Assembly (NCBI GenBank): GCA_018882835.1
Contig: VERE01000008.1
Coordinates: forward strand, 1 to 64,000
Length of the DNA: 64,000 nucleotides
Direction of reading: 5' to 3'
Origin: Limnohabitans sp.
Lineage (GTDB): Bacteria > Pseudomonadota > Gammaproteobacteria > Burkholderiales > Burkholderiaceae_C
The notes under the pieces were generated by a model. The model worked only from the letters and a program-made list of their open reading frames with translations. It did no database searches and was not told where the DNA came from. Both the position numbers and the translations under genes were made by a program. Shown piece after piece: positions 1 through 48,028 of this stretch; position 1 is the stretch's first letter; the number at the start of each line of letters is the position of its first letter.

Positions 1-445
1 CGCCATAGGCGAGCACGCTGCAGGGCCGGTCGGCCTGCGCGCCCATGCCCACCATGTCCAGCAGATCGAGCGCATCGCTGCGGCGGTGCTTGGCGGCCGA
101 TGACCACATGGAAAACAGCTTGCGGTCTTGCGACATGAGCGCCATCTGCACGTTCTCGACCACTGTCAAAGATGAGAAGGTGGCGGCGATCTGGAAGGTG
201 CGGCCCACGCCCAGACGCCAGATCTGGCGCGGCTGCAGGCCCACCAGCTCGGTGCCGTCCAGGCGGATCGAGCCACGGTCGGCGCGCAGTTGGCCATTGA
301 CCATGTTGAAGGTGGTGGACTTGCCCGCACCGTTGGGGCCGATCAGGGCCAGCAATTCGCCGGCCTTGAGCTCGAAATGGATGCCATCGACGGCCTTGAC
401 GCCGCCAAAGGACTTGCCGAGGTTGTCGACGGTCAGCAAACTCAT
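1..445 (-). CDS. livG: ABC transporter ATP-binding protein LivG (partial, N-terminal part)
   Basis: The first 148 residues of an ABC ATPase of branched-chain amino acid (HAAT) type; the 3' end lies beyond the window edge. It begins MSLLTVDNLGKSFGGVKAVD and shows Walker A GPNGAGKST near residues 39-47 and the Q-loop region GRTFQIAATF that is typical of LivG. It would energise import by the fused permease directly upstream. The ATG overlaps the permease stop by four bases (ATGA), so the two are translationally coupled. The substrate cannot be read from this part; neighbours suggest an aromatic or heterocyclic acid rather than an amino acid (inference). Confidence 0.93.
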   Translation of the reverse strand, partial: MSLLTVDNLGKSFGGVKAVDGIHFELKAGELLALIGPNGAGKSTTFNMVNGQLRADRGSIRLDGTELVGLQPRQIWRLGVGRTFQIAATFSSLTVVENVQMALMSQDRKLFSMWSSAAKHRRSDALDLLDMVGMGAQADRPCSVLAYG

Positions 446-2352
446 CGCGCCACCTCCGCAGTGTTGCGCCGCTGGTCCAGCAGCTGGCGGAAAAAGCCGG
501 CAATGCCCTGCGGGAACAGCAGCACCAGGATCAGGATCACGGCACCCAGCAAGGCGCGCCAGTATTCGGTGCTGCGGGCCATCACATCGTGCAGCCAGGT
601 GTAGCTGACCGCCCCCACCACCGGGCCGGCCAGGGTCTGCAGGCCGCCCAGCAGCACCATCACCAGGCCATCGACCGAGCGGCTCACATTGAGGGTTTCG
701 GGCGAGATGCTGCCCTTGGAAAACGCGAACAAGGCGCCCGCCACACCGGCAAAGGCGCCGGCAATGATGAAGGCGATCCACTGCATGGCCTTGACGTCGA
801 TGCCGATCGCATCGGCACGCAGCACCGAGTCGCGGCCCGCACGCAAGGCATAACCAAAGGGCGAGAACAGCATGCGCCGCAAAGCCCACAGCGAGACCAG
901 CACCAGCACCAGGGTCAGGTAGTAATAGGCCTGTTTGCCCGAGAGCCACTCGGCCGGCCAGACCCCGGTCATGCCATTGCTGCCGCCGGTCACGTCGTCC
1001 CACTGGTAGACCCCGGCCCAGACGATTTGCGCGAAAGCCAGCGTGAGCATGGCCAGGTAGACGCCCGACAGGCGCACACTGAACCAGCCCACAATCAGCG
1101 CGCCCAGCGCGGCCACCAGCGGTGCCAGCAGCAGGGCCGCCTCCATCGACAGCCCCAGCTTGCGCACCACCAGCGCGGCCGCATACGCGCCCAGGCCAAA
1201 GTAGGCTGCGTGGCCAAACGAGTGCATGCCCGCCGGCCCCATGATGAAGTGCAGACTGGCGGCAAAAAGCGCCGCGATCAGCTGGTCAATCGCCAGCACC
1301 ACCACATAGGGCGATCCGCTGCTCATCGAGGGCAGCACCAGCAAGGCCAGCGCCAGCACGGCCACGGCCGCCAGGAACAACTTGTCGGCGGGGCGAATCG
1401 GCAACTCGGCCTCGCCCAGCGCGCGCGCCGCGGCCTGCGCCTTGCCCATCAGACCCCAGGGCCGCACCATCAGCACCACGGCCATCACCAAAAATTCGGC
1501 CACCAGGGTGAGCTTGGAAAAGGCAAACGAGATACCCCACAACTCCACGGTGCCAATCCCCACGCACAAGGCTTTGATTTCAGCGATCAGCAGCGCCGCC
1601 ACATAGGCCCCGGGGATTGAGCCCATGCCGCCCACCACCACCACCACAAACGCATCGCCAATGGTCAGCAAGTCAAGGCCAAGGTTGGCAGGCTCACGCG
1701 GCAATTGCAAGGCGCCGCCCAAGCCTGCCAAGGCACAGCCCAGGGCAAACACACTCGTGAACAGCCAGCTTTGGTGGATGCCCAGGGCGCCCACCATTTC
1801 GCGGTCCTGGGTGGCTGCACGCACCAGGGTGCCAAAGCGGGTTCGCGTCAGCAGCAGCCACAGCAAGCCCAAGATGACCGGGCCGATCACCATCAGCAAC
1901 AGGTCATAGCTTGGGAAGCGTCGCCCCAAAATGTCGATAGAGCCCGCCAAGCCAGGCGCACGCGGCCCGAGCAAATCTTCCGGACCCCAGACCCACAGGG
2001 CAGCATCTTTGATCACCAGCACCAGCGCAAAGGTGGCGAGCAACTGGAACAACTCCGGCGCTTTGTAAATGCGCCGCAGCAACACAATTTCGACCAGCGC
2101 CCCCAGGACGCCGGAAATCACCGCTGCCAACAACAGCAGCAGCCAGAAACTCCAGGCCAGGCCCAGCTTGCGCCCCAGGTGTTCGACCAGGGAATATGCC
2201 AGGTAAATGCCCAACATGAAAAATGAGCCGTGGGCAAAGTTCACGATCCGGGTCACCCCGAAAATAAGTGACAGCCCGGCGGCCACCAAAAACAGCGAAG
2301 ATGCTCCGGCCAGGCCATTGAGCAATTGAACGATCAAGCCGGAGACATCCAT
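442..2352 (-). CDS. fused LivH-LivM branched-chain-type ABC permease
   Basis: A 636-residue inner-membrane permease in which both HAAT permease subunits form one chain. Residues 1-300 are LivH-like (GLSLIFGVTRIVNFAHGSFF near the N-terminus; GGMGSIPGAYVAALLIAE near 240). Residues 320-636 are LivM-like (GMHSFGHAAYFGLGAYAAA near 375; GGSNGMTGV; GSISPETLNVSRSVDGLVMV). LivH and LivM are usually separate proteins of about 290 and 330 residues, so the length equals their sum. No stop or frame slip separates the halves. It lies between the receptor gene and livG, with 12 bases between it and the receptor gene. It forms the membrane channel of the importer. Confidence 0.93.
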   Translation of the reverse strand: MDVSGLIVQLLNGLAGASSLFLVAAGLSLIFGVTRIVNFAHGSFFMLGIYLAYSLVEHLGRKLGLAWSFWLLLLLAAVISGVLGALVEIVLLRRIYKAPELFQLLATFALVLVIKDAALWVWGPEDLLGPRAPGLAGSIDILGRRFPSYDLLLMVIGPVILGLLWLLLTRTRFGTLVRAATQDREMVGALGIHQSWLFTSVFALGCALAGLGGALQLPREPANLGLDLLTIGDAFVVVVVGGMGSIPGAYVAALLIAEIKALCVGIGTVELWGISFAFSKLTLVAEFLVMAVVLMVRPWGLMGKAQAAARALGEAELPIRPADKLFLAAVAVLALALLVLPSMSSGSPYVVVLAIDQLIAALFAASLHFIMGPAGMHSFGHAAYFGLGAYAAALVVRKLGLSMEAALLLAPLVAALGALIVGWFSVRLSGVYLAMLTLAFAQIVWAGVYQWDDVTGGSNGMTGVWPAEWLSGKQAYYYLTLVLVLVSLWALRRMLFSPFGYALRAGRDSVLRADAIGIDVKAMQWIAFIIAGAFAGVAGALFAFSKGSISPETLNVSRSVDGLVMVLLGGLQTLAGPVVGAVSYTWLHDVMARSTEYWRALLGAVILILVLLFPQGIAGFFRQLLDQRRNTAEVAR

Positions 2353-2364
2353 GGCGTCAAATCT

Positions 2365-3570
2365 TCAGTCTGCGGGACGCAGCTTTTTCACTTCGTCGTT
2401 GCTGGGTTGGAAGGCTGCACCGTCAAGGTAGCGGTAATCCACCATGATGCCCTTGCCGTTGTCGTTCTTGGTCTTGCCCACGAAAGCGCCCATGGTGGAC
2501 TGGTGGTCCTGCGGGCGGAAGCTCACTTTGCCAAAAGGGCTGTCCATGGTGAGGCCTGTGAACGCTGTGACCAGCTTCTCGGTTTCGGTGCTGCCGGCCT
2601 TTTTGATGCCCGCCGCCAACGCCTGAATCATGGTATAGCCCACCACCGAGCCCAGGCGCGGATAGTCGTTGAATTTTTTCTGGTAGCCGGCCAAAAAGGC
2701 TTTGTGCTCCGGCGTGTTGATGCCGTTCCAGGGGTAGCCGGTGACGATCCAGCCATTCGGGGTTTCATCCTTCAGCGGGTCCAGGTATTCCGGCTCGCCG
2801 GTCAGCAGGCTGACCACCTCACGGCCTTGGAACAGGCCGCGCGTGTTGCCTTCGCGCACAAATTTGGCCAGGTCAGCGCCAAACAAGACGTTGAAGATGG
2901 CATCCGGCTTGGCATCGGCCAAGGCTTGCGCCACGGCACCTGCGTCCACCTTGCCCAGGGCAGGCGCTTGCTCGGCCACAAACTCTACATCCGGCTGCGC
3001 GGCTTTCAGCAGTTGCTTGAACGTGGCCACAGCCGACTGGCCGTACTCATAGTTGGGGTAGACCACCGCCCAACGCTTCTTCTTCAGCTTGGCGGCCTCA
3101 GGCACCAGCATGGCGGCTTGCATGTAGGTGGAGGCGCGCAAGCGAAAGGTGTACTTGTTGCCGTTTTGCCAAACGATCTTGTCGGTCAGCGGCTCGCCGG
3201 CCAGGAAGAAAAACTTTTTCTGCTTGGAAAAGTCAGTGAGCGCCAAGCCAATGTGCGACAGAAAGGCCCCCGACAGAACATCCACTTGCTCGCGCGAGAT
3301 CAGCTCTTCGGCGGCGCGCACGGCGTCGCCTGGCGGGGCGTTGTCATCGCGAATGATCAGTTGCAGCTTGCGGCCATTGACGCCACCGGCCGCATTGATC
3401 TCATCGACCGCCAGCTCCATGCCTTTTTTGTACGGGTCGAGGAAGGCCGGCTGGGCCTTGTAGCTGTTGATTTCCCCAATCTTGATAACGCCTTGCGCCA
3501 TCACGGACGAGAGCCCGAAGGCCAGGCCCAGGGCGGCAGCGGCCCGAGTCAAAGTGCGAAAAGGTTTCAT
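2365..3570 (-). CDS. branched-chain-type ABC transporter substrate-binding protein
   Basis: A 401-residue periplasmic receptor of the LivK/Peripla_BP_6 family. An N-terminal Sec signal peptide (to about residue 25, ending SSVMAQG) precedes IKIGEINSYKAQP and the family signature GMELAVDEINAAGGVNGRKL. GAFLSHIGLALTDF and RWAVVYPNYEYGQSA are typical of the two lobes. The ATG follows a GAGGAG ribosome-binding site. It is the first gene of the receptor-permease-ATPase unit and lies 52 bases downstream of the PF06684 gene, so transcription may continue from the catabolic genes. The ligand is unknown; an N-heteroaromatic acid or its degradation product is an inference from context. Confidence 0.9.
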   Translation of the reverse strand: MKPFRTLTRAAAALGLAFGLSSVMAQGVIKIGEINSYKAQPAFLDPYKKGMELAVDEINAAGGVNGRKLQLIIRDDNAPPGDAVRAAEELISREQVDVLSGAFLSHIGLALTDFSKQKKFFFLAGEPLTDKIVWQNGNKYTFRLRASTYMQAAMLVPEAAKLKKKRWAVVYPNYEYGQSAVATFKQLLKAAQPDVEFVAEQAPALGKVDAGAVAQALADAKPDAIFNVLFGADLAKFVREGNTRGLFQGREVVSLLTGEPEYLDPLKDETPNGWIVTGYPWNGINTPEHKAFLAGYQKKFNDYPRLGSVVGYTMIQALAAGIKKAGSTETEKLVTAFTGLTMDSPFGKVSFRPQDHQSTMGAFVGKTKNDNGKGIMVDYRYLDGAAFQPSNDEVKKLRPAD

Positions 3571-3622
3571 AGAAGCTCCTCAGTAAAAGTTGGAGGGGTG
3601 AAAAAAACAGAACCGTGGGGTG

Positions 3623-4207
3623 TCAACGCAGGCCATCCTGGCCAACGATTTCATGAACTTGCAAACCGCCTATGCGTGGGTGCGGTCGGCCACTGTCGGT
3701 GACCGCGACTGCCACCAGAATTTCGTTGGCAAAGGGGGCATCGGGGATGCGCGCCTCGATGGCGTCAAAATGGCTTCGGACAAAGGCGGCGTCCTTGTGC
3801 CCCAGAGGCACGTCCACTGCAGCGCCAGGCCCGCCCCGTTTTTTGGCGGAGGGCACCAATGCAGCGCCTTTGCTGACGGCTTTGCGCAAAGGCGCACCCA
3901 GTTTGGGATGCAAAATGGCCGCGGCATGTTCCAGTTCACCGGTCTCGCCCACAATGGCAGCCTTGCCGTAGCTCTGCGCTTGCTCGGGCGCAATGCCCAA
4001 GGCCTGGACACAGCGCTGCCCCAGGAGGGCGCCCAATTCCTCGCCGATCTCGATGAGCTCATCCAGGCTCTCGCTGTACTGGCCTGCATAGGGGTTGTGA
4101 ATGACTGCCATGGCCAACGCACGGCGCGTGGCCGGCGTCACCGCACGCCCGCCTTCGAGGTGCGTCTCATCCAGCTGAACCACAATTTTTCGGATCTTGG
4201 CTTTCAT
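3623..4207 (-). CDS. amino acid synthesis family protein (PF06684 / DUF1185)
   Basis: A 194-residue soluble protein that I recognise as PF06684, known by the uninformative name 'amino acid synthesis family' (formerly DUF1185). Visible family-like segments are IRKIVVQLDETHLEGGR at the start, IHNPYAGQYSESLDELI, the GKAAIVGETGELEHAAAILHPKLG block and the C-terminal AVTDSGRPHPRIGG. No biochemical reaction is firmly assigned to the family as far as I know. It is encoded 15 bases after a UPF0280 gene, which in turn follows the 6-hydroxynicotinate reductase gene, so all three are likely co-transcribed. A role in ring opening or an amide/lactam step is inferred from context only. Confidence 0.85.
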   Translation of the reverse strand: MKAKIRKIVVQLDETHLEGGRAVTPATRRALAMAVIHNPYAGQYSESLDELIEIGEELGALLGQRCVQALGIAPEQAQSYGKAAIVGETGELEHAAAILHPKLGAPLRKAVSKGAALVPSAKKRGGPGAAVDVPLGHKDAAFVRSHFDAIEARIPDAPFANEILVAVAVTDSGRPHPRIGGLQVHEIVGQDGLR

Positions 4208-4222
4208 GACAGGTTTTTTTCC

Positions 4223-5104
4223 TCAGATCAAGCAGGCTTCGTGCCCAGAAAAAGCAAACTGGCCCTGACAACTCAGCAAGGCCGCAAAAATCAAACCTTC
4301 TTCGCGCAAGCGCTCAGCATATACGCGCCCTTGCTGCAAAGCGATCAAGATTTGCCCGGGGTCCAGAGGCGGCACATTCAAGGTCACCAGGCGGTCGCCG
4401 AGGTCGGTGTCATCGCGGATCTGGTCAGCAGGACAGCGTTCGATGCGCGCATCGTTCACGTTCACGGCATTGCCAATCAGGGTGGCGGCCGCATCGGCCT
4501 GGGCCGCGGTAGCAGCCAGCACAGTCACGGTTTCTGCAATGCCCAAGGATTGGCTGCGACCGCGCCAACCGCTGGTGGCCACACCCCGCACCGGCATGTC
4601 GGCATGCACTCGCAGCTGCCCTTGGGCCTCCAATTCTTCAAGGGGGGAGCTGGCCAGGGCGCGCGCCATGTCGGTCACCAAACCAACGCGCAAGGATTGG
4701 CCTTGCGTCAGATGCAAGGCAATGTCACCGCCATTGTTGACCCAGGCCCGCGTGATGCCATCGCGCTTGTAGCACTGCAACACTTCCTGCGCCACTGCCC
4801 CGGCCACTGCTGCCATGGGGGTGATGAAACCATCTGGCGTGGTTGCCACCAAGGGGGCACAGGCGGTCCACATGCGTCGGGCCACTTCGCCCTTCAAGGG
4901 GTTGTCTGCCTGCGCTTGCACGGGTTGACGCAACGTGGGCAGTTCACGCACCAGCGTCGGCAAAATGCCCTCGAACACTTGCCAAGCCTCCTCATGGGCA
5001 GCTTGCACGGCGCGCTCATCGCCATCGGCACGCACCAGCAAATCGATGGGCCCGTGCTGGTAGTGCCAGCGGTCATCGCTCAGGGCTTGGCGTTGGGCTT
5101 GCAT
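4223..5104 (-). CDS. UPF0280 family protein (ApbE-like fold)
   Basis: A 293-residue protein of the UPF0280 family, distantly related in fold to the ApbE flavin transferase. Recognisable parts are an ADGDERAVQAAHEEAW segment near the N-terminus, a central MAAVAGAVAQEVL helix, RAWVNNGGDIALHL near the middle and VRGVATSGWRGRSQSLGI. The ATG at 5104 lies five bases after the stop of the hnr-like gene; longer forms would overlap that gene extensively. The NNGGD motif resembles the nucleotide-binding segment of ApbE, so a role in flavin or radical-cofactor maturation of the neighbouring reductase is possible. That role is inference; the family has no established function. Confidence 0.82.
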   Translation of the reverse strand: MQAQRQALSDDRWHYQHGPIDLLVRADGDERAVQAAHEEAWQVFEGILPTLVRELPTLRQPVQAQADNPLKGEVARRMWTACAPLVATTPDGFITPMAAVAGAVAQEVLQCYKRDGITRAWVNNGGDIALHLTQGQSLRVGLVTDMARALASSPLEELEAQGQLRVHADMPVRGVATSGWRGRSQSLGIAETVTVLAATAAQADAAATLIGNAVNVNDARIERCPADQIRDDTDLGDRLVTLNVPPLDPGQILIALQQGRVYAERLREEGLIFAALLSCQGQFAFSGHEACLI

Positions 5105-5108
5105 GCGC

Positions 5109-6692
5109 TCAGCCCAGCATGGGTGGGTTGTCCAGCGGCCACGGGTAGACCCCGGCTGGCGGGGCCTCCCAGCGCAACTGTGTGGGCGCACCGTCGTTGT
5201 GCCAGGCGCCATGTTTCAAGGTATCGTCCAGGCTGCGTACGAAGGCCATGTGGCCACCCAGCGCCTGGTAATCTGACAGCTTCATGGTGAATTCAATGGG
5301 CGCCACGATGGCGGGGGTGGGCACCGTGCCGAAACTGCCACGAGGCATGCGGGTCACGTCGGCCATAAGGGTAATGCCGCCCCCTGGCCACACATAGGAA
5401 GGCGCGCCGCCACAGGTGACATTCACCAGCGCGTTTTTGATGGCACGGGTGAGGCGCACCGGGTTGTCGGTCACGCCGGCACGCAAACTGCCGCCGGCGC
5501 CAGCCAGGAACAACACCGAGACCAAAGAAGGCTCACAGTTTTCACCAATGCGATCCACCACTTGGCGCACCGCTTCGGGCATGGCGTGTGGCTGGGGCTG
5601 CAACTGCGCGTCCAGCACATACCAGGCGGCATGCTCGCCAGTGGTCGAGGTCATCAGCAGTTTCAAGCCGGGCCAGGCCACCTCAGGGTCCCAGGGCGCC
5701 AGGATGTGCAGCGGGTCTTCAATGTCGGTGCCGCCCCAGCCTGTGCCCGGATTGGCCACCTGGAAATAACGCCCAGGCGTGGACTTGCGGCCTTTGATCT
5801 TGATGCCGCTGGGCGGAATGTGGAGGCAGCGCCCGGCCTGGTGCTCGCTCAGGACACCGGTGATGTGGTCGTCCACCACCACCACCTCGTCGCACAAGCC
5901 CAGCCACTGCTGCGCAAAAATGCCAATGGCCGCCGAGCCGCAGCCCACCCGCATGCGCTGCTCGGGCACACCATTGACAATGGGCGCCTTGCCCGCTTGC
6001 AGCACCACGGTGGAGCCGCCTTCAATGCTGACCTCCACCGCCTCATGGTTGCCCAGGGCCTGCATCATCTCCACAGTGACGCGGCCTTCCTTTTTGCTGC
6101 CACCGGTCAGGTGATGCACCCCCCCCAGGCTCAGCATTTGCGAGCCATACTCGGCCGTGGTCACATGCCCGACGGCTTCCCCACGACAACGCACCACGGC
6201 CTGCTCGGGACCGAGATAGCGGTCGGTGTCAATCTTCACTTTGAGGCTGCAATAACTGAAGATGCCTTCCGTCACCACCGTGACCAGATCCACCCCACGC
6301 GACTTCGACGCCACAATGAACGGCGCCGGCTTGTAATCCGGGTAAGTCGTCGACGACCCCACCCCCGTCACAAACACCCCCCGCTCCGCCACCTGCTCCC
6401 GCACCTCCTGCGCCAAGGTGGGGGTCAGGTCTTGCGTTTTGCCTGTCTGGCTGTGGATATCTTTTTGCAACAGCACCACCGGGTCCAACCGCACCAGCAC
6501 ACCTTGGCGATTGGCGTAGCGGTCACAGGCCCCCGCACGGCCTTCGGAAATCTGACACAGCACCGGGCAAGCATTGCATTCCACCTTGTTGCCCGCCATG
6601 AGCTCATTGCGCGGCGCCGCACGCTCAATGCCCAAATGGGCAGCGGCACCTTCCGGTCCGGGCAGGCCATCGCCTTGGGTGTACTGGGTCAT
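5109..6692 (-). CDS. hnr: 6-hydroxynicotinate reductase-like iron-sulfur protein
   Basis: A 527-residue protein resembling the 6-hydroxynicotinate reductase of nicotinate-fermenting Eubacterium barkeri, which reduces 6-hydroxynicotinate to 1,4,5,6-tetrahydro-6-oxonicotinate. An N-terminal cysteine set (C39, C42, C46, C56; VECNACPVLCQI) fits an Fe-S cluster. The body contains GVGSSTTYPDYKPAP, SYCSLKVKIDTDRYLG and a VGCGSAAIGIF segment. It starts the minus-strand unit with UPF0280, PF06684 and the ABC importer. A ferredoxin reductase gene and an enamidase gene lie divergently, matching a reductive ring-opening route. Residues 77-91 (KDIHSQTGKTQDLTP) coincide with a copy of the dispersed repeat described elsewhere. 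Substrate assignment rests on homology and context. Confidence 0.8.
   Translation of the reverse strand: MTQYTQGDGLPGPEGAAAHLGIERAAPRNELMAGNKVECNACPVLCQISEGRAGACDRYANRQGVLVRLDPVVLLQKDIHSQTGKTQDLTPTLAQEVREQVAERGVFVTGVGSSTTYPDYKPAPFIVASKSRGVDLVTVVTEGIFSYCSLKVKIDTDRYLGPEQAVVRCRGEAVGHVTTAEYGSQMLSLGGVHHLTGGSKKEGRVTVEMMQALGNHEAVEVSIEGGSTVVLQAGKAPIVNGVPEQRMRVGCGSAAIGIFAQQWLGLCDEVVVVDDHITGVLSEHQAGRCLHIPPSGIKIKGRKSTPGRYFQVANPGTGWGGTDIEDPLHILAPWDPEVAWPGLKLLMTSTTGEHAAWYVLDAQLQPQPHAMPEAVRQVVDRIGENCEPSLVSVLFLAGAGGSLRAGVTDNPVRLTRAIKNALVNVTCGGAPSYVWPGGGITLMADVTRMPRGSFGTVPTPAIVAPIEFTMKLSDYQALGGHMAFVRSLDDTLKHGAWHNDGAPTQLRWEAPPAGVYPWPLDNPPMLG
6420..6464 (+). repeat. degenerate copy of the dispersed repeat inside the hnr-like CDS
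   Basis: GGGGTCAGGTCTTGC, then TTTTGCC and CTGTGGATA in the same order and nearly the same spacing as the intergenic copy at 25687-25731. Only a few positions differ: G for C at one site, TGTCTGG for a run of six T, and ATCT for AACT. It is read on the minus strand as residues 77-91 of the reductase without breaking the frame. Confidence 0.75.
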
Positions 6693-6887
6693 GGGGCCTT
6701 ATTCAAAATTCGACACATGCATATGTGCAATGGGTTGGAAGCACTGTTGTAAAGTGGGGAACTTTGTAAATTCACGACATTCAATTTAATGTTGTGAACG
6801 CTACATGAGTCTACAATATAGACCATCCCGTTCCATGCGACAAGGGGGTCTGCCCGAAGTTTTGTCGCGCCCTTTGCAATACCCAAC
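6693..6887. promoter_or_regulatory. divergent intergenic control region between hnr-like and ferredoxin reductase genes
   Basis: About 195 AT-richer bases separate two divergent transcription units. They contain a 28-base imperfect palindrome (6771-6798) and a second short inverted repeat, GTCTA-CAATA-TAGAC (6809-6823), which overlaps a possible -10 hexamer TACAAT for the rightward unit. The TetR gene two positions downstream is the natural candidate regulator (inference). Confidence 0.6.
6771..6798. promoter_or_regulatory. 28-base palindromic candidate operator
   Basis: The arms TTCAC-n-ACATT and AATGT-n-GTGAA are exact reverse complements around a six-base CAATTT centre. Size and symmetry fit a dimeric TetR-type repressor. 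It sits in the middle of the divergent region, so it could control both units. Confidence 0.6.
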
Positions 6888-7661
6888 ATGAGCTCAATGC
6901 ACCAGGAAAAAGTACTGTCCGTTCATCACTGGACCGACCGTCTCTTCAGCTTCACCACCACCCGCGACATGGCCTTGCGATTTTCCAACGGCCACTTCAC
7001 CATGATTGGCTTGCAGGTGAATGCCAAACCCTTGTTGCGCGCCTACAGCATCGTCAGCGCCAACTACGAAGAGCACCTGGAATTCTTGAGCATCAAGGTG
7101 CCCGATGGCCCTCTGACCTCGCGCTTGCAACACATTCAAGTGGGTGACAGCATCATCGTGGGCCGCAAGCCCACCGGCACCTTGCTGATCGACTACCTGT
7201 TGCCCGCCAAAAACCTGTACCTGCTGAGCACAGGCACTGGCATGGCGCCTTTCCTGAGCATCATTCGCGACCCCGAAACCTATGAGCGCTTTGAAAAGGT
7301 CATCCTGGTGCACGGCGTGCGCGAGGTGAAAGAGCTGGCCTACCACGACTACATCACCCAAGAATTGCCACAACATGAGCTGTTGGGCGAGATGGTCAGC
7401 GAGCAACTGCTGTACTACCCCACGGTGACGCGCGAGCCCTATAAGAATCAAGGCCGCATCACCGATTTGATTCAATCTGGCAAACTCATGAAAGACCTGG
7501 GTTTGCCAGATCTCGACCCGGCCAACGACCGCGTGATGATTTGCGGCAGCCCCCAGATGCTCAAAGACCTGAAGGTGATGCTGGAGCAAAAAGACTTCGA
7601 AGAAGGCAACACCAGCAAGCCCGGCGACTTTGTGATCGAGCGGGCCTTCGCAGACCAATAA
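6888..7661 (+). CDS. fpr: ferredoxin--NADP+ reductase (Fpr type)
   Basis: A 257-residue FAD enzyme that moves electrons between NADPH and ferredoxin or flavodoxin. The FAD-binding motif RAYSIVSA is near residues 51-58, the NADP-binding segment STGTGMAPFLSII near 114-126, CGSPQML near 219, and the chain ends in an aromatic-poor tail VIERAFADQ. It is the first gene of the rightward unit with the TetR regulator and enamidase, and divergent from the iron-sulfur hnr-like reductase. It could therefore supply low-potential electrons to that reductase (inference). A housekeeping role in oxidative stress is the alternative. Confidence 0.88.
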   Translation: MSSMHQEKVLSVHHWTDRLFSFTTTRDMALRFSNGHFTMIGLQVNAKPLLRAYSIVSANYEEHLEFLSIKVPDGPLTSRLQHIQVGDSIIVGRKPTGTLLIDYLLPAKNLYLLSTGTGMAPFLSIIRDPETYERFEKVILVHGVREVKELAYHDYITQELPQHELLGEMVSEQLLYYPTVTREPYKNQGRITDLIQSGKLMKDLGLPDLDPANDRVMICGSPQMLKDLKVMLEQKDFEEGNTSKPGDFVIERAFADQ

Positions 7662-7672
7662 GCACATCACCC

Positions 7673-8419
7673 ATGGCCACCACCCGCACCCCCTCGACGC
7701 CTCGGGCTTCACGGGGCACGGGTTCGGTCCCCTCGGCCACCTCGGCGGCGGCGCGCCTGGCCACACGGCAGCCTGTGGCAGCGGCCAAAGGCAAGCTTGG
7801 GGTGCGCGAGCAATCTGCACAACAAACCCGCGACAGCATCCTCAAGGCAGCCACCCAAATTTTTGCCAAATACGGCTACGACGGCGGCAGCGTGGAAAAA
7901 ATCTCGAAGGCGGCGAATTCCTTCGACCGGATGATTTACTACTACTTCGGCAACAAGGAAGGCTTGTTCATCGAAGTAATTGAGGGCATCTATCGGCGCA
8001 TGAACGAGGCCGAATCGAAGCTCAAGCTGAACACCGATGCCCCAGTGCAAGCCTTGAAAGAGGTGATCGATTTTGTGCTCTCTTATTACCAAAAGCATCC
8101 AGAATTCGTCACCTTGCTGAACACAGAAAACCTGCACCAGGGCCGCCATATCAGCAAGTCGCCACGCGCGTCCGAATACTCATCGCCAGCCATTGAAATC
8201 ATCGCGCGCATTTTGCAAAGCGGCGTGCAACAGAAACTGTTCCGCGACGACTTGAACGCGCGCCATGTGTACCTGCTGATTGCCGCCACCGGTTATTTCT
8301 ACATGTCCAACCGCCACACGCTGACGGCCTTTTTGGGTGAGTCGCTGGCAGACCCGCGCAATGTGCAAAGCTGGAAAGATTTCGTTACCGATTCGGTGCT
8401 GCGCGTTGTGCGGCGCTGA
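7673..8419 (+). CDS. TetR family transcriptional regulator
   Basis: A 248-residue regulator. An alanine- and threonine-rich extension of about 45 residues precedes the TetR helix-turn-helix (TRDSILKAATQIFAKYGYDGGSVEKISKAANSFDRMIYYYFGNKEGLF, roughly 52-100). The C-terminal ligand domain includes a TetR_C-type region (YYQKHPEFVTLLNTEN). The ATG at 7673 lies 11 bases after the reductase stop and gives a sensible length; a longer frame from 7541 would overlap fpr. It is embedded in the ring-reduction locus and probably controls it through the palindrome at 6771-6798 (inference). Confidence 0.87.
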   Translation: MATTRTPSTPRASRGTGSVPSATSAAARLATRQPVAAAKGKLGVREQSAQQTRDSILKAATQIFAKYGYDGGSVEKISKAANSFDRMIYYYFGNKEGLFIEVIEGIYRRMNEAESKLKLNTDAPVQALKEVIDFVLSYYQKHPEFVTLLNTENLHQGRHISKSPRASEYSSPAIEIIARILQSGVQQKLFRDDLNARHVYLLIAATGYFYMSNRHTLTAFLGESLADPRNVQSWKDFVTDSVLRVVRR

Positions 8420-8448
8420 ACCTCCCACCACCTCACAGGAGACACAAC

Positions 8449-9639
8449 ATGGCAACCGCACTGATTGAAGAAAAATCGGGCAAAGTGGTGATTCGCAACA
8501 TTGGACTGCTGCTCTCGGGAGACATCGACCATCCCATTCTGGAGGCCGACACCATCGTCATCCAAGATGGGTTGATCACGGCGGTGGGCAAAGAAAAAGA
8601 TTGCGATACCGAAGGCGCCAAGACCATCATTGACGCGAAACAAACCTGCGTCGCGCCGGGCCTGATCGACAGCCATGTACACCCGGTGTTTGGCGACTGG
8701 ACGCCGCGCCAGGGGCAACTGGGATGGATCGACTCCACCATGCATGGCGGCGTCACCACCATGATTTCTGCGGGTGAAGTGCATTTGCCCGGGCGCCCGA
8801 AAGACATCGTGGGCTTAAAAGCTTTGGCCATCACGGCACAGCGTGCGTTTGACAATTTCCGGCCCGGGGGCGTGAAGGTCATTGCGGGGGCGCCCGTCAT
8901 TGAAAAGGGCATGACCGAACAAGACTTCAAAGAGCTTGCCGAGGCCGGCGTCACCTTGCTGGGCGAGGTGGGCTTGGGCTCGGTCAAGGCGGGTTACGAG
9001 GCCAAGGAAATGGTGGCCTGGGCGCGCAAGCACGGCATTCAAAGCACCATCCACACAGGTGGGCCCTCCATTCCGGGCTCGGGCCTGATTGACAAGGACG
9101 TGGTGCTGGAGGCCGATGCCGACGTCATTGGCCACATCAACGGTGGCCACACCTCTTTGCCCGAAGCGCATGTCTGCGAACTGTGCGAGAAATCCAGCCG
9201 CGCCATCGAAATCGTGCACAACGGCAATGAGCGCGTGGCGATTGCAGCTGCCAAGGCGGCCTTGGAATTGAAATGCCCGCATCGCGTCATCCTGGGCACC
9301 GACGGTCCTGCAGGCTCTGGCGTTCAGCCCTTGGGCATGCTGCGCATGGTGGCGCTGCTCTCTAGCCTGGCGAACATTCCTGCCGAGTTGGTGTTCTGCT
9401 TTGCCACGGGCAATACGGCGCGCATTCGCAACCTGAATTGCGGCTTGATCGAGGTGGGGCGCGCCGCCGACTTCGTCTTCATGGACCGTGCGCAGCACAC
9501 TGCCGGGCGCACCTTGCTGGAAAGCGTTCAGCTAGGCGACATTCCTGGCGTGGGCATGGTGATGATCGATGGCATCGTGCGCTGCGGGCGCAGTCGCAAT
9601 ACACCGCCGGCGACCGAAGTGCCGGTGGTTGTTCACTGA
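8449..9639 (+). CDS. ena: enamidase-like metal-dependent amidohydrolase
   Basis: A 396-residue amidohydrolase-superfamily enzyme closely resembling the enamidase of Eubacterium barkeri, which hydrolyses 1,4,5,6-tetrahydro-6-oxonicotinate to 2-formylglutarate and ammonia. Metal ligand candidates are H76 and H78 (DSHVHP), E173 (GEVGLG), H202 (HTGGPSIPGS), H229 (GHINGG) and D285 (GTDGPAG). The segments HGGVTTMISAG, PGRPKD and the C-terminal SRNTPPA match the enamidase pattern as I remember it. A Shine-Dalgarno AGGAG precedes the ATG. It acts directly after the hnr-like reductase in the proposed pathway. A different cyclic amide substrate remains possible. Confidence 0.85.
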   Translation: MATALIEEKSGKVVIRNIGLLLSGDIDHPILEADTIVIQDGLITAVGKEKDCDTEGAKTIIDAKQTCVAPGLIDSHVHPVFGDWTPRQGQLGWIDSTMHGGVTTMISAGEVHLPGRPKDIVGLKALAITAQRAFDNFRPGGVKVIAGAPVIEKGMTEQDFKELAEAGVTLLGEVGLGSVKAGYEAKEMVAWARKHGIQSTIHTGGPSIPGSGLIDKDVVLEADADVIGHINGGHTSLPEAHVCELCEKSSRAIEIVHNGNERVAIAAAKAALELKCPHRVILGTDGPAGSGVQPLGMLRMVALLSSLANIPAELVFCFATGNTARIRNLNCGLIEVGRAADFVFMDRAQHTAGRTLLESVQLGDIPGVGMVMIDGIVRCGRSRNTPPATEVPVVVH

Positions 9640-9642
9640 AAA

Positions 9643-9684
9643 GTTATCCACAGAAAAAAGGCAAAACTCAAGACCTGACCCCAT
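9643..9684 (-). repeat. dispersed repeat copy with DnaA-box sequence
   Basis: Begins GTTATCCACAGAAAAAAGGC and ends AAGACCTGACCCCATG, matching copies at 25752-25796 and 32010-32051; CTC replaces GGC in the middle. TTATCCACA at 9644-9652 is the DnaA-box consensus. Its right part overlaps the last codons of the convergent maleylacetate reductase gene. The strand given follows the GGGGTCAGG reading direction. Confidence 0.8.
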
Positions 9685-10735
9685 GCCAGGCGTTGTAGAG
9701 GAGGTCGCGCAGGGGGGCTTTTTCTAGGGGGCGGGGGTTGGGGTATTGGTTTTGGAGGGCGATGTCCAGGGCTTTGAGGAGGTCGGGCTCGGAGAGGCCG
9801 AGGTCTTTCAGGGCGACGGGGGCGCCGTGGTCGCGGGCGAGGTCGTAGATGGCCTGGGGTACGGTGAGACCACGGGCTTGGCAGTTCAGGGCGCGGGCCA
9901 TGCGCGCCAGAGCGTCGGGAATAGCGGGGGCGTTGTAGGCCAGCGCATGCGGAAGAATGATGGTGTGCGTTTCGGCATGCGGCAGGTTGAAGCTTCCGCC
10001 CAAGGTGTGGCACAGCTTGTGGTGCAAGGCCATGCCCGCATTGGCCAGGGCTTGGCCGCACAGCCAGGCGCCATACAAAGCCAGGCTTCGGGCTTCGAGA
10101 TTGGACGGATCTTGGTGGATCAGGGGAAGTGCTTTGCCCAGCGCGGCAATGCCCTCTTCCGATTGCAAGTCCATGATGGGGTTGCCGTCAACGGCGTAAA
10201 GGCATTCCGCCGCATGGGCCATGGCATTGATGCCACTGGTGATGCTCAAGCCAACGGGCAATGACAGGGTCAGCAAAGGGTCGTAGATGACGGTGCGTGG
10301 CAACACGCGCGGATCACGGCCCGTTTTTTTCTGTCCGCCCTCGGTGATGCCATAGATGGTGGTCATCTCGCTGCCAGCGTAAGTGGTGGGGATCGCCAGG
10401 ATCGGCAAACCGGAGTCCAGGGCAATCGCTTTGCCAAGGCCGGTGGTCGAGCCGCCGCCGATGGCCACAGCGCAGTCGGCGCCCAAGCGCTGGGCCTCGG
10501 CACGGGCCTCGCGAGCGGTTTCGATGGGCACATGCATCACCGCACGGTCAAAAATGCCGGCGGCGCGCTGGCCCAGCATGTCGGCCACTTGCGCGGCACT
10601 GGCTCTTTGCTCTGGCGTGCAAAGCACCAGGGCACGGCGTGCACCCAGAGCCTCGATCTCACGCGCCAGGTGTTTCAAACTGCCCGCGCCAAAGACCACG
10701 CGCTGCGGTTGGCTCACATACACAAAATCTTTCAT
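9668..10735 (-). CDS. maleylacetate reductase-type iron-containing alcohol dehydrogenase
   Basis: A 355-residue group III (Fe-type) dehydrogenase in which the maleylacetate reductase subgroup is recognisable by VVFGAGSLKHL, AIGGGSTTGLGKAIAL, IPTTYAGSEMTTIYG, NAMAHAAECLYA and HKLCHTLGGSFNLPHAETHT. Maleylacetate reductases make 3-oxoadipate with NAD(P)H, which fits the pcaIJF genes further along. In this locus it may instead reduce an aldehyde from ring opening (inference). The ATG at 10735 overlaps the stop of the hgd-like gene by four bases; the earlier start at 10825 would run far into it. The last residues HGVRS and the stop codon are encoded by the dispersed repeat. Confidence 0.87.
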   Translation of the reverse strand: MKDFVYVSQPQRVVFGAGSLKHLAREIEALGARRALVLCTPEQRASAAQVADMLGQRAAGIFDRAVMHVPIETAREARAEAQRLGADCAVAIGGGSTTGLGKAIALDSGLPILAIPTTYAGSEMTTIYGITEGGQKKTGRDPRVLPRTVIYDPLLTLSLPVGLSITSGINAMAHAAECLYAVDGNPIMDLQSEEGIAALGKALPLIHQDPSNLEARSLALYGAWLCGQALANAGMALHHKLCHTLGGSFNLPHAETHTIILPHALAYNAPAIPDALARMARALNCQARGLTVPQAIYDLARDHGAPVALKDLGLSEPDLLKALDIALQNQYPNPRPLEKAPLRDLLYNAWHGVRS

Positions 10736-11613
10736 GGGTTCAATCCGCTGGCGCGTTCCAGTACTTTGATGATGGTGGCGTAGTCTTGCTGGCCATCGCC
10801 CTGGGCGATGGCAGACTGCATCCACTGCTGGGTCATGGCGGTTTGCGCCAACGGCACATTCAGCGATTTGCCAGCGCCCAGAATCAGCTCCAGGTCTTTC
10901 AGCATTTGGTGGACCGTGAAGGTGGGCGTGAAATCACGCACCAGCAAGGGCTGTCCCAATTGCAAGGACTTGGCTTTCACAATCGGTGAGGCCACGGCGC
11001 TGGCCGCGATCACCTGCCACATGCTTTCCCAATCGAGCCCACCCTTGCGGCCCAGCGCCAAAGCCTCCGACAACATGGCACTGGTCTGAACAATCATCAG
11101 GTTGACGACCAGCTTCATGAGCCGGGCTTGCTCGTCTTCACCCAGATAGAACTGGTTAGGGCCCCAACACTTCAACAAAGGCAGGGCCTCCTGGTAAAGG
11201 GCTTGCGGCCCAGAGGCCATCATGGTCAGCTGCGCGGCCTCGGCCATGTGGTTGTTGCCCGACACCGTGATGCGCAGGTAGGGGTGGCCCGAGTCAGCGC
11301 ACAGCTGGCCGACTTCGGCCGAGGCTTGCATGGAGACGGTGCTGGTGTCTACCAGCGCCACCCCTGCTGGGGTGCCCTCGCACACTTGGCGGCCCACCGC
11401 GCGCAAGGCGTCGTCGTGTGGCAAAGAGGAAAGGACCATGCTGGCCAGCTTCAAATCCGCCGCCAGGTTCTCGCTGACGCGCAGGCCCGCATCACGGGCC
11501 AGCCGCAGTCGGTGGATGTCAGGGTCGTGCACGCTGACGGCATAACCTGCCGCTTGCAAATGCCGCGCGAGCGGCAATCCCATCTTGCCCATGCCCAGAA
11601 ATACAAGGTTCAA
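10732..11613 (-). CDS. hgd: 2-(hydroxymethyl)glutarate dehydrogenase-like (3-hydroxyisobutyrate dehydrogenase family)
   Basis: A 293-residue NAD(P)-dependent beta-hydroxyacid dehydrogenase. The nucleotide-binding GMGKMG is near residues 7-12, the substrate motif VSGNNHMAEA near 117-126, and the catalytic lysine K167 with N171 lies in MKLVVNLM. Eubacterium barkeri Hgd reduces 2-formylglutarate, the enamidase product, and has a similar tail (AVIKVWEQMTG versus TIIKVLERASG). I place the start at TTG 11613 because GGAGAG lies seven bases upstream; the longer frame from 11748 would overlap the Bug receptor gene. VSGGT of the family is VSGNN here. Hydroxyisobutyrate or tartronate semialdehyde are alternative substrates. 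Confidence 0.8.
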   Translation of the reverse strand: MNLVFLGMGKMGLPLARHLQAAGYAVSVHDPDIHRLRLARDAGLRVSENLAADLKLASMVLSSLPHDDALRAVGRQVCEGTPAGVALVDTSTVSMQASAEVGQLCADSGHPYLRITVSGNNHMAEAAQLTMMASGPQALYQEALPLLKCWGPNQFYLGEDEQARLMKLVVNLMIVQTSAMLSEALALGRKGGLDWESMWQVIAASAVASPIVKAKSLQLGQPLLVRDFTPTFTVHQMLKDLELILGAGKSLNVPLAQTAMTQQWMQSAIAQGDGQQDYATIIKVLERASGLNP

Positions 11614-11705: not shown

Positions 11706-12671
11706 TTAATCGACCTTGGCGCCGGTGAGTTGCACCACCCCCGCCCATTTCTTGGCTTCCGAGGCCATGTAGGCTTCCAGGGTGACGCGGTCCATGCGAA
11801 TGGCTTCCAGCGACTGCGCCGCAAAGCCCTCCGAGACGCCGCGCGTTTGCAAGATGCGGTTGATTTCCGCGTTCACCCGCTGCAGCACGTCTTCGGGGGT
11901 CCCTTGCGGGGCGAACATGGCAAACCAGGTGTTGGCCTCAAACCCCGGATAGCCCAACTCCGCCACCGTGGGCACGTCCGGCAAGGCGCCACTGCGCTTG
12001 AGGCTGGTGACCGCGATGGGGCGCACCTTGCCCGCCTTGGCCAATTGAACCACCGGCGGGATCGAGGTCGAGCCCAGGGGCACTTGGCCGCTCACCACTG
12101 CATTGGCGGCAGAGGCCGGGGCGTAAGGCACATGCTGCACGTCCACCTTGGCCAGATTGCGAAACAGCAATTCGGCTCCCAGATGGGTGGTGGTGCCATT
12201 GCCCGAAGAGGCATAGCTAAGCTTGTCGGTTTTGGACAGCGCCAGCAACTCGGCCAAGGTGTTGGCCTTGACGCTGGGGTGCACGAACAAAATATTGGGC
12301 GAAACCGCCGCCAAGGCCACCGCATTCAACTCCTTGCCCACCTCGTAGCCCGCCTTGCTGTAAAGAGAAGGGTTGACGGCATAGGCCACGCTGTGCATCA
12401 AAAAGGTGTAGCCATCAGGCGCGCTGCGTGCCACGCCCACAGTGGCAATGTTGCCGCCCGCGCCGGGCTTGTTTTCGATGACCACGGGTTGCCCCAAAGC
12501 TTCAGACAGCGGCACGCTCAAGGCGCGCGCCACAATGTCGGTGGAGCTCCCCGGGGGAAAGGCCACCACGATCTTGATGGGTTTATCAGGCCAGGCGGCC
12601 CAGGCACTGCCGAACACTGCCAAGACAGCAGCCATCAGACCTGCACGGCCCCAAAAAAATAGACGACGCAT
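11706..12671 (-). CDS. Bug/TctC family periplasmic receptor
   Basis: A 321-residue tripartite tricarboxylate receptor. A signal peptide (to about residue 25, AVFGSAWA) is followed by WPDKPIKIVVAFPPGSSTDIVAR, the Bug signature. ENKPGAGGNIATVGVAR forms the second loop and VDVQHVPYAPASAANA the third. Such receptors bind carboxylates and feed TctAB-type permeases or signal their presence; no permease gene is adjacent. It lies between the hgd-like gene and a terminator that separates it from pcaF, so it probably belongs with hgd and the maleylacetate reductase gene. The ligand is unknown. Confidence 0.9.
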   Translation of the reverse strand: MRRLFFWGRAGLMAAVLAVFGSAWAAWPDKPIKIVVAFPPGSSTDIVARALSVPLSEALGQPVVIENKPGAGGNIATVGVARSAPDGYTFLMHSVAYAVNPSLYSKAGYEVGKELNAVALAAVSPNILFVHPSVKANTLAELLALSKTDKLSYASSGNGTTTHLGAELLFRNLAKVDVQHVPYAPASAANAVVSGQVPLGSTSIPPVVQLAKAGKVRPIAVTSLKRSGALPDVPTVAELGYPGFEANTWFAMFAPQGTPEDVLQRVNAEINRILQTRGVSEGFAAQSLEAIRMDRVTLEAYMASEAKKWAGVVQLTGAKVD

Positions 12672-42837: not shown

Positions 42838-43842
42838 TTAAAACGCTTCTTTTTCGGCCTCGAGGTACGCCAGGCTGGTGTACTTGCCGATGTTGGTCTC
42901 AAAGCCCTGCATGGTTTTCGCGCGCGCAGCCACACGCGGGTCGCGCAACACCCGGGCCTTGGCGTCGGCTTCCGACAAGCCTTCTTTGACGGCTTGCAGA
43001 CACGGCTCCCAAATGCCTGAAAGAAATGCCCCGTAGGTTTGCAAAATATCTTTGCCGCTCACGCCATGCCCGGGGACCCACAATTGTTCGCCCGCGGCAT
43101 TGCGCAGCGCATCGTAGTACTTGAAAGTTCCCACATAGGAACCGTCGTCCAGGTTGGCGATACGGTTGGCCATGGCGATGTCGCCAATGGCCGTGACTTT
43201 GTCTTCCACCACTTCAACGCAGAGGTCAGCGGCGGTGTGGGCACGGCCGTAGAAATGCATCTTCAGCGTGACGTCGCCAAACTTGAAGGTCTGACCGTTT
43301 TCAACCGTTCGGTTGGGCGCCACCACGCGGGTGCCAGCGGTGGACTGGTTGGTCCACTTTTCCATCAGGGTGAGCCAGGTGCTGCCTTCAAAGCCGCGAA
43401 TCATCTCTTGCGTATGGGGCAAGGCATAAATCGGCAGTTGCTGTCCGAAGGCCTGGGCAAAGGCATGGTTGCCCAACCAATGATCGCCATGGAAATGGCT
43501 GTTGAACACAGCCACCACCGGCAATGGGGTCACCTGCCGGATCATGCGAATGACCATCTGACCAATTTGCAAGGAGCTGCCCGAGTCCAGAATCACCACG
43601 CCAACGGATGTGACCACAAAGATCACATTGGACATCATGCCGCGGTTTTCTGGCGTCGGAAAACCATCGGGGGCATAGACCATCCATACATGCCGCGAGA
43701 GCTGCACCGGGGGGATGTCGCCCACCGGTGGGCCTTGGATGAAGTCTTGTGCTTGCTGCGCCAGCAATTGCACATCTGGCCACAATCCAGCCAGCGCCAC
43801 CGAGGCCGAAGTCGCCCCTAGAAATGCGCGCCGCGAGGTCAT
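42838..43842 (-). CDS. soxH: SoxH-like metallo-beta-lactamase-fold hydrolase
   Basis: A 334-residue periplasmic metallohydrolase. A Tat-type signal (SRRAFLGATSASVALAGLW) is followed by the zinc motif NSHFHGDHWLGNHAFA near 115-130, AHTAADLCVEVV for the next ligand and VPGHGVSGKD for the last. SoxH is often encoded at the end of sox operons and is dispensable for thiosulfate oxidation in model strains; its substrate is unknown. The ATG overlaps the soxB stop (ATGA), which fixes the start and indicates coupling. Confidence 0.85.
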   Translation of the reverse strand: MTSRRAFLGATSASVALAGLWPDVQLLAQQAQDFIQGPPVGDIPPVQLSRHVWMVYAPDGFPTPENRGMMSNVIFVVTSVGVVILDSGSSLQIGQMVIRMIRQVTPLPVVAVFNSHFHGDHWLGNHAFAQAFGQQLPIYALPHTQEMIRGFEGSTWLTLMEKWTNQSTAGTRVVAPNRTVENGQTFKFGDVTLKMHFYGRAHTAADLCVEVVEDKVTAIGDIAMANRIANLDDGSYVGTFKYYDALRNAAGEQLWVPGHGVSGKDILQTYGAFLSGIWEPCLQAVKEGLSEADAKARVLRDPRVAARAKTMQGFETNIGKYTSLAYLEAEKEAF

Positions 43843-45572: not shown

Positions 45573-45587
45573 AATTTTGCAATCACT

Positions 45588-45596
45588 GATATATGA
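45588..45596 (+). promoter_or_regulatory. GATATAT motif before soxB
   Basis: GATATATGA in the short gap between the soxX terminator and the soxB start. The same core GATATATnA appears upstream of soxC and of the dsrE-like gene. Candidate SoxR (ArsR-type) site; inference. Confidence 0.4.
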
Positions 45597-45603
45597 ATGA
45601 CAA

Positions 45604-45628
45604 AAAAACCCGGACCAGCCGGGTTTTT
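45604..45628 (-). terminator. intrinsic terminator between soxX and soxB
   Basis: A perfect ten-base stem (AAAAACCCGG with CCGGGTTTTT) around loop ACCAG, followed on the minus strand by a T run. It begins five bases after the soxX stop and is strong in both directions because A and T tracts flank the GC core. Confidence 0.85.
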
Positions 45629-45632
45629 CCAG

Positions 45633-46286
45633 TCACTTGTTGACAGGTGAACGGGGATCGAGCAACAGGGCGACAATGTCGCGGATTTGTTGTTCGTTGA
45701 GGATGCCCATGTGGCCGGCACGCGGCATGTTGGAACATGCGTTGTAGGCTTTGGAATTCCAGATCTTGCCCCAGGTGTATTCAACGATTGGTTTGGCTTC
45801 AGGACTGTTGGGATCGGTCACACCACGGATCTTGCCGTAGTTGTGCAGACTGGGTCCAATCGTTCCGTAGGAAATTTCCTTGGCGTCGATCTGGTGGCAG
45901 TTGTAACAATTGCCACCACTGACCGTCCCCGGCGGATCGGTCCAGGTCAGGCCACGACCGCTTTGGGCGATTTTTTCGCCTTCTTTCCAGTCCCCCAGAA
46001 ACTGGCCATTGGCCGGCCAACGAATCGTCTTGAGGTTCATGGCCTCGATGTCCTTGGCGGTTTTCTCATCCAAGGGCTTGCCGCTGACATCGGCTTCGCT
46101 GCAAGCACGGCTGGTCTCGTCGATGTTGAGCACCCGATCGACACCGACTGGCCCCTCGGAGCGGAAAGAAGCCTTCACAATGGCATCGGTCAGGCTGTTG
46201 AGCTCGCTGGTGCTGGGCAAGGATGCGCAGCCCGCCACCACCAAGGCTGCAGCCAGGGCGGCCCCGAGTTTGGTTTGCATTTTCAT
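45633..46286 (-). CDS. soxX: sulfur oxidation cytochrome SoxX
   Basis: A 217-residue monoheme cytochrome c. The signal sequence ends LVVAGC, so lipid anchoring at C20 is possible. Heme motif CYNCH is at 127-131 and the axial methionine is in ACSNMPRAGHMG. With SoxA it forms the SoxXA heme enzyme that attaches thiosulfate to the SoxY cysteine. GGAGAGG lies six bases before ATG 46286. It is encoded 16 bases after soxA. Confidence 0.92.
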   Translation of the reverse strand: MKMQTKLGAALAAALVVAGCASLPSTSELNSLTDAIVKASFRSEGPVGVDRVLNIDETSRACSEADVSGKPLDEKTAKDIEAMNLKTIRWPANGQFLGDWKEGEKIAQSGRGLTWTDPPGTVSGGNCYNCHQIDAKEISYGTIGPSLHNYGKIRGVTDPNSPEAKPIVEYTWGKIWNSKAYNACSNMPRAGHMGILNEQQIRDIVALLLDPRSPVNK

Positions 46287-46302
46287 CTGTCCTCTCCCCG
46301 CT

Positions 46303-47103: not shown

Positions 47104-47130
47104 TGTCACCTCGGATTTTTTTGCAAGAGA

Positions 47131-47442
47131 TCAGCTGACGGTGGCTTCGTCTTTGCGGCTGTCGCCTTTGTTATCTTTCCACAAAATGGTGACTTTGTCG
47201 CCCGCCTTGGCGCCCTTGATGGCGAACTGCAGGAACGGATTTTTGGCCACAGCCGGACCCCATTCAGCGGTCATGACGGTCTTTTCATTGTGCAATGCCG
47301 TCACTTCCTGAATGAACCAGGCAGGGACAATTTTGCCGTTGGCGTCTTTGCGTTGACCAGACTCCATTTCGTGGCTCATCAAAACACGGACGGTGGCTTT
47401 GTCGCCGGAAGCTTGGGCGCGAATGCGCATCGGATCTGCCAT
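47131..47442 (-). CDS. soxZ: sulfur carrier complex protein SoxZ
   Basis: A 103-residue periplasmic partner of SoxY without its own signal peptide, so it is exported with SoxY. Typical blocks are MRIRAQASGDKATVRVLMSHEMESGQRKD and IPAWFIQ-like VPAWFIQEVTA, ending WKDNKGDSRKDEATV. A strong GGAG precedes the ATG. It lies between soxY and soxA. Confidence 0.95.
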   Translation of the reverse strand: MADPMRIRAQASGDKATVRVLMSHEMESGQRKDANGKIVPAWFIQEVTALHNEKTVMTAEWGPAVAKNPFLQFAIKGAKAGDKVTILWKDNKGDSRKDEATVS

Positions 47443-47490
47443 TTTTTTTCTCCTAATTCGTTACAAAAGCTGGGATATGAAAGTGCTGGA

Positions 47491-47949: not shown

Positions 47950-48028
47950 CTGATTTCTCCTTGTGACTAAGTGGATGCTGTTTGAATGGCGTGGAAGGTC
48001 AACAGGCAACCGAATCCACAATCTTAAG

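Follow-up and report, generated by a model that had tools for sequence, protein, structure and literature searches.

Ring reduction ahead of ring opening was first found in a strict anaerobe. In the nicotinate fermentation of Eubacterium barkeri, a 6-hydroxynicotinate reductase (Hnr) and an enamidase (Ena) act in steps that the locus described here has in common, and a specific dehydrogenase, Hgd, belongs to the pathway as well. Aerobic systems have also been described: according to PMC3511419, nicotinate clusters are known from Azorhizobium caulinodans, Bradyrhizobium, Rhodopseudomonas and strain SG-6C, and strain SG-6C, which has such a cluster, degrades both nicotinate and 6-hydroxynicotinate. 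The present locus lies at the start of a 64-kb window (the whole stretch of DNA analysed, bases 1-64000 of the 83,065-base contig C21, assembly G000) from a 3.28-Mb draft genome of Limnohabitans sp. (completeness 97.97, contamination 5.15). Its genes occupy positions 1-9639 as two divergent sets, hnr–UPF0280–PF06684–SBP (substrate-binding protein)–livHM–livG on the reverse strand and fnr–tetR–ena on the forward strand. With the published clusters it shares an Hnr homologue, an enamidase homologue, an ATP-binding cassette (ABC) importer and a pair of conserved proteins of unknown function, which we infer to be UPF0280 and PF06684; its divergent fnr–tetR–ena set and a predicted TetR site of its own would set it apart from them.

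We read this locus as a reductive nicotinate catabolic operon under TetR control, with a probability of about 0.85 judged from sequence, because of the likeness of its Ena to enamidase and the conserved layout with NicAB-type genes in Burkholderiales loci. The original prediction, made from the letters of the window, had proposed a reductive pathway of this kind, and a reductive, enamidase-type opening of 6-hydroxynicotinate still best explains the combination of Hnr, Ena, FNR and importer. Its novelty in a non-anaerobe falls away, as the route had already been published for aerobes (Azorhizobium, strain SG-6C).

Conserved layout and likely substrate

The best match of Ena among PDB chains (phmmer) is 2vun, annotated as enamidase (E = 1.1e-110), and the next match scores 30.2 bits. 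Identity over ungapped aligned positions is 47.1%, and both proteins have H76-x-H78, H202, H229 and D285, which we take to be the metal ligands of the binuclear site of enamidase; with this His/Asp pattern kept, the earlier enamidase-like call holds up in alignment with the crystallised enzyme. To place the locus among its relatives, the best 80 of at least 590 stretches encoding an Hnr relative in genome_contigs (tblastn at 1e-15; some may come from the same gene) were compared with flanks of up to 10 kb. Many of these 80 loci are short at an end, and a well-flanked subset of 50 extends 5 kb or more upstream of hnr and 8 kb or more downstream. The closest hnr loci among the matches listed are from Burkholderiales, e.g., Limnohabitans and Polaromonas, and the number of stretches suggests that reductive ring opening is a widespread route of vitamin B3 use in this order.

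The genes of the window recur in most of these loci (Table 1), together with NicA-like (60 of 80 loci; 49 of 50 well-flanked), NicB-like (53; 44) and isochorismatase-like genes (36; 29). In the common order, ena, tetR and fnr read away from hnr on one side, while hnr is followed on the other by UPF0280, one or two PF06684 genes, SBP, livHM, livG, livF, at times the isochorismatase gene, nicA and nicB. This order runs through LivG, LivF and NicA in loci L014 and L026, and through the NicB-like gene in L026, L069 (Noviherbaspirillum sp. Root189) and L102 (Variovorax sp. ZS18.2.2); plasmid CP099606 of Comamonadaceae bacterium OTU4NAUVB1 shows it with database names. Exceptions are L097 and L100, where ena is placed after the importer, on the opposite side of hnr. 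Four hnr loci of another family (L224-L227) have nicAB divergent from hnr, unlike the window-type order.

That no nicotinate hydroxylase gene lies in the window, as the original prediction stated, is true of the window but is an effect of the contig edge: the contig starts inside livG, and in relatives the nicAB-type genes lie further on. Since these genes belong to the conserved locus of the relatives, nicotinate is the most likely external substrate, rather than the 6-hydroxynicotinate or other pyridone or lactam proposed earlier. A second contig of the same assembly (C43, positions 1-8329) starts inside SBP and continues with livHM, livG, livF and nicA-like and nicB-like genes, the last encoding 1202 aa with 66% identity to its counterpart in L034. 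Its identity to the window is mosaic, at 92-96% and then about 69%: with gaps counted as differences, SBP is 95.8% identical, the first half of livHM 91.8%, the rest of livHM 68.7% and livG 70.4%. Because the overlap is no closer than this, C43 may stem from a different strain or be a second operon copy, showing how the operon continues in the lineage rather than on C21.

A related pyridone or lactam, imported directly, might instead be the substrate, and the diversity of hnr clusters lends this some weight, as does the lack of a hydroxylase gene in the window. In a sample of 398 Pseudomonadota genomes (213 genera), 32 have hnr; Ena was found in 18 of them at E <= 1e-20 and not in the other 14, so that an Ena-less cluster variant probably exists. 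Inspection of 20 of the 32 hnr regions gave nine of a nicAB type, ten of a xanthine-dehydrogenase type and one of neither, with hydantoinase genes in six (four of the ten, one of the nine and the remaining one). The other kind of hnr cluster (L220, L228, L231, L233-L240) mostly has no enamidase nearby and carries xanthine-dehydrogenase-type subunits, in some cases with hydantoinase A/B or a Rieske oxygenase; on the Sagittula stellata plasmid (L220), which has genes of the hydantoinase and Rieske types, nothing closer than 10 kb to hnr is annotated as enamidase. Such clusters perhaps serve a different substrate or a different lactam-opening route, and the Hnr family may serve several substrates. 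In a tree of 30 Hnr sequences the window falls in a supported set of five sequences from the genus, each of whose hnr loci includes Ena, and the presence of Ena changes 3 times, compared with 10.2 in shuffles; the "no Ena" label of L022 and L023 covers about 10 kb on each side of hnr. In view of the two cluster types and this split, some of its members may not be well described by the name 6-hydroxynicotinate reductase. For the window-type locus itself, a substrate other than nicotinate is nevertheless improbable, given the frequency of NicA-like and NicB-like genes in the well-flanked Burkholderiales loci and the 87-93% identity of Ena across the seven same-genus loci in which the gene is wholly or largely present.

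Several observations weigh against the assignment as a nicotinate operon. The identity of Hnr comes from annotated orthologues (17 of the 26 Hnr-matching plasmid records are named 6-hydroxynicotinate reductase), and the presence of Hnr is not enough to define the substrate, because the family extends to the 14 genomes without detected Ena. Within the genus, hnr is present in 12 of 25 genomes, the present one counted and many of them incomplete, and the same-genus loci L016 and L020 have no fnr, tetR or importer near hnr. No nicAB genes were found on the window's own contig, which ends inside livG, and across the 3.1 kb that C43 and the window share, their identity is only 82.8%. On contigs C69 and C95 there are two further NicB-like genes of lower similarity (40-41%), each beside a NicA-like gene, which leaves more than one candidate for the hydroxylase.

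If the locus is such an operon, nicotinate would enter through the Liv-type ABC importer, and a NicAB-type dehydrogenase encoded beyond the contig end would convert it to 6-hydroxynicotinate. FNR would take electrons from NADPH and deliver them, probably by way of a ferredoxin, to Hnr, an iron-sulfur enzyme that would reduce the ring to 1,4,5,6-tetrahydro-6-oxonicotinate, and enamidase would hydrolyse this product to 2-formylglutarate and ammonia, with the carbon going onward via glutarate through genes elsewhere. The chemistry of these steps is that of the known pathways, in part as given in PMC3511419.

Association of UPF0280 with Hnr

In the phylum sample, hnr and UPF0280 were each detected in 32 genomes, and these are the identical 32 (16 of the 213 genera). 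In every case UPF0280 comes directly after hnr on one contig, with 8 to 492 bases between the match ends, and the co-occurrence gives a Fisher's exact P of 6e-48 for genomes that are not independent of one another. The two genes also adjoin in all 50 well-flanked loci, and among plasmids 26 records contain hnr and 27 contain UPF0280, with 26 common to both. We take UPF0280 to be COG2122, in part from the structural match described below. This strict partnership of Hnr and COG2122 is new here, and no paper linking the two in its title or abstract opening was found among the open-licence papers listed.

A few single loci depart from the common picture. The Hydrogenophaga plasmid pBPS33-1 (L251) has four UPF0280 places and no hnr match; the two places examined sit in IS1071-separated repeats with a Rieske oxygenase and a PDR/VanB reductase, and these units are candidates for a relic or for a different partner. 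One UPF0280 match (G422:C28:9639-10463) contains a TGA, and one hnr match (G056:C1:2969757-2971261) comes in two pieces in different frames with a 4-base overlap.

The structure model of the window's UPF0280 protein (predicted local distance difference test 90.3) matches 2o34 (DVU1097, Desulfovibrio) at E 1.8e-10. Many ApbE structures also match, from E 1.8e-5 (3pnd, Foldseek probability 1.00), with TM scores of about 0.4-0.5 and root-mean-square deviations mostly of 7-12. According to PMC5764234, Desulfovibrio vulgaris needs COG2122 as well as DUF39 to make homocysteine, and other authors have proposed that COG2122 takes part in persulfide modification. The window protein thus has the fold of the COG2122 of that pathway; there COG2122 is paired with DUF39, whereas here it is tied to hnr, and DUF39 (PF01837/HcyBio) was found in none of 299 sampled genomes of the phylum, G000 included (the control was positive in 3 of 14 genomes). 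HcyBio was likewise absent from a Pfam scan of 30 Hnr sequences at E <= 10, which is weak evidence, since low-scoring matches are removed by the filters.

Both settings are most simply explained if COG2122 has more than one client enzyme, DUF39 in homocysteine synthesis and Hnr here. COG2122 is probably a maturation or partner factor of Hnr and would probably be required to mature or assist it. More broadly, and only tentatively, at slightly less than even odds, we suggest that COG2122/UPF0280, rather than being specific to homocysteine synthesis, matures or partners a whole class of reductive iron-sulfur enzymes and is required by DUF39 in anaerobes and methanogens and by Hnr in Pseudomonadota. 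If true, Hnr would be a second client of COG2122, aerobic and genetically tractable, and its own fold, not yet solved, would include a GcvT-C-like barrel. The tie to Hnr makes the role of COG2122, which is unclear in homocysteine synthesis, testable by growth on nicotinate.

The predicted ApbE fold raises another possibility, namely that UPF0280 is a canonical ApbE flavin transferase attaching FMN to Hnr. A weak match to PF02424 (0.0013, below the cut-off) and the resemblance of the invariant D204, T208 and the NNGGD and ATSG motifs to ApbE motifs would fit this, as would a covalent flavin, which the Hnr of E. barkeri is reported to carry. At the sequence level, the 22 UPF0280 proteins compared have no invariant His, the near-invariant H14 being N-terminal and none being conserved after ATSG, so the base of Vc_ApbE, His257, finds no counterpart. 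The ApbE target motif D-x-x-[ST]-G-A-[ST] occurs in 0 of 30 Hnr sequences and the shorter [ST]GA[ST] in 4 of 30, and according to PMC5764234 the homology does not extend over the flavin-binding region. Flavin transfer of the canonical type is therefore unlikely, and a role of UPF0280 as maturation or partner factor is preferred.

Hnr itself has seven Cys that are invariant in 30 sequences (C39, C42, C46, C56, C148, C251 and C386), arranged as CxxCxxxC-x9-C and three further residues. The E. barkeri enzyme reportedly holds one 2Fe-2S and two 4Fe-4S clusters, and seven Cys are fewer than these would need. Residues 149-209 give a weak but recurrent match to the C-terminal barrel of the glycine-cleavage T-protein (GCV_T_C, Pfam) in 29 of the 30 sequences, and the same region was picked out in a second structural comparison. 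Apart from this, Hnr matched no Pfam family and no NCBIfam family at E <= 0.01, and PDB searches gave no sequence match and no convincing fold match.

Dehydrogenase genes and the PF06684 protein

The original prediction combined Hnr, Ena and an "hgd-like" gene into a trio of the E. barkeri type; in such a model the three enzymes act consecutively to 2-hydroxymethylglutarate. The gene in question lies 1.1 kb from ena, and Hgd (3cky) is the top PDB match of its product; this match leads 3pdu by only 0.7 bit (124.7 versus 124.0 bits), with 31.2% identity to 3cky. The gene occurs near hnr in none of the 80 loci and the adjacent iron-type alcohol dehydrogenase gene (FeADH) in one, within the stretches fetched. 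It stands on the strand opposite to ena, next to TctC and FeADH, and these three genes form a separate set convergent with fnr–tetR–ena. At E <= 1e-60, 8 of 61 relatives, the present genome counted, have FeADH. It lies on a different contig from hnr in the drafts G015, G016, G017, G026 and G034, and in G017 it is paired with the 3-hydroxyisobutyrate-dehydrogenase-family (HIBADH) gene (82% and 63% identity, respectively) on a contig without hnr. According to PMC3511419, the route of A. caulinodans takes tetrahydro-oxonicotinate onward via glutarate, so no Hgd is expected in an aerobic pathway of this kind, unlike in E. barkeri. A trio ending in Hgd is thus very improbable, and the gene was rejected as a pathway member and assigned to the generic HIBADH family, with 3pdu an equally good match.

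The PF06684 protein aligns with 2qtp (SPO0826) over residues 3-194 and with 3byq (BB2672) at 105.9 bits. PF06684 was found in 31 of the 32 hnr genomes, G178 being the exception, and in 28 genomes without hnr. Two genomes (G162:C11, G232:C11) have a pair of PF06684 genes directly beside ena on a contig different from that of hnr, which ties the family to the enamidase step as well; the protein may assist near the Hnr/Ena step. In PMC2954203, PF06684/DUF1185 was linked to amino-acid metabolism partly through neighbouring transport genes of the branched-chain-amino-acid type. Here such neighbours are the importer of the nicotinate locus; because importer genes behind this link can serve nicotinate use, the "amino acid synthesis" name of the family may be misleading.

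Predicted TetR site and map of the window

Family matches bear out the genes named in the original prediction for the hnr-like reductase, enamidase-like amidohydrolase, ferredoxin reductase, Liv-type importer, PF06684 and UPF0280 proteins; the tetR gene is a member of the set that it had not included. For fnr, the best NCBIfam match is NF008178 (2.3e-48), which stays below its cut-off (164.6 versus 390 bits).

The sequences upstream of the hnr loci yielded a palindrome, ATGTWGYRNNYRCWACAT, which occurs in the 64-kb window once, with no mismatch. With up to two mismatches allowed, shuffled windows average 0.60 matches and 42 of 100 have at least one, so the match in the window alone proves little. 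Of 79 loci with at least 200 bp upstream, 69 carry the palindrome, at two mismatches or fewer, no more than 350 bp ahead of hnr, a count that is not independent because the motif was scored on the loci that yielded it. Elsewhere in the loci it was found in 16 places over 1.40 Mb, eight of them just outside ena or tetR. For the 78 of 92 loci with enough flank, TetR and the site occur together in 62, neither in 12, TetR only in four and the site only in none. In 17 of 20 regions of the phylum sample the palindrome was not found; the three that have it (L221-L223) are of the same order or family. As the site tracks the presence of tetR across loci, TetR is its likely binder and the palindrome at 6789-6806 a likely, predicted TetR operator, at which TetR would block the divergent promoter region until an inducer binds.

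Table 1. Features of the window discussed in the text, with their occurrence in hnr loci
Feature	Position	Strand	Basis or remark	Loci (of 80)	Well-flanked loci (of 50)
livG, ATP-binding subunit	1-445	-	truncated by contig start; translation of 2-445 is MSLLTVDNLGKSFGG...GPNGAGKST
livHM, fused Liv-type permease	442-2352	-	PF02653, two stretches, 1.2e-69	68	48
Periplasmic substrate-binding protein (SBP)	2365-3570	-	PF13458, 7.9e-70	71	46
PF06684 protein	3623-4207	-	PF06684, 1.1e-72; 295.2 bits to 2qtp (SPO0826)	76	50
UPF0280/COG2122 protein, ApbE-like fold, probable Hnr partner	4223-5104	-	NF003322, 6e-114, above cut-off	79	50
hnr, 6-hydroxynicotinate-reductase-type	5109-6692	-	annotated orthologues; invariant Cys pattern
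Predicted TetR operator ATGTTGTGAACGCTACAT	6789-6806		sole match in 64 kb; tracks tetR
fnr, ferredoxin-NADP-reductase-type flavoprotein	6888-7661	+	PF00175, PF00970	65	42
tetR regulator	7673-8419	+	PF00440, PF17938; ATG at 7673	66	46
ena, enamidase	8449-9639	+	373.8 bits, 179/380 identical to 2vun	67	48
Iron-type alcohol dehydrogenase (FeADH), judged outside the system	9668-10738	-	PF25137/PF00465	1
HIBADH-family dehydrogenase ("hgd-like"), judged outside the system	10732 to ~11616 (start approximate)	-	PF03446/PF14833	0
TctC	11706-12671		beside the HIBADH-family and FeADH genes

Further along, positions 43839-55681 of the window hold sulfur-oxidation-type genes, encoding a 5'-nucleotidase C-terminal protein (presumably SoxB-like, from its context), a SoxA/TsdA cytochrome domain, a sulfite-oxidase-type molybdoprotein (SoxC-like) and a flavocytochrome c sulfide dehydrogenase.

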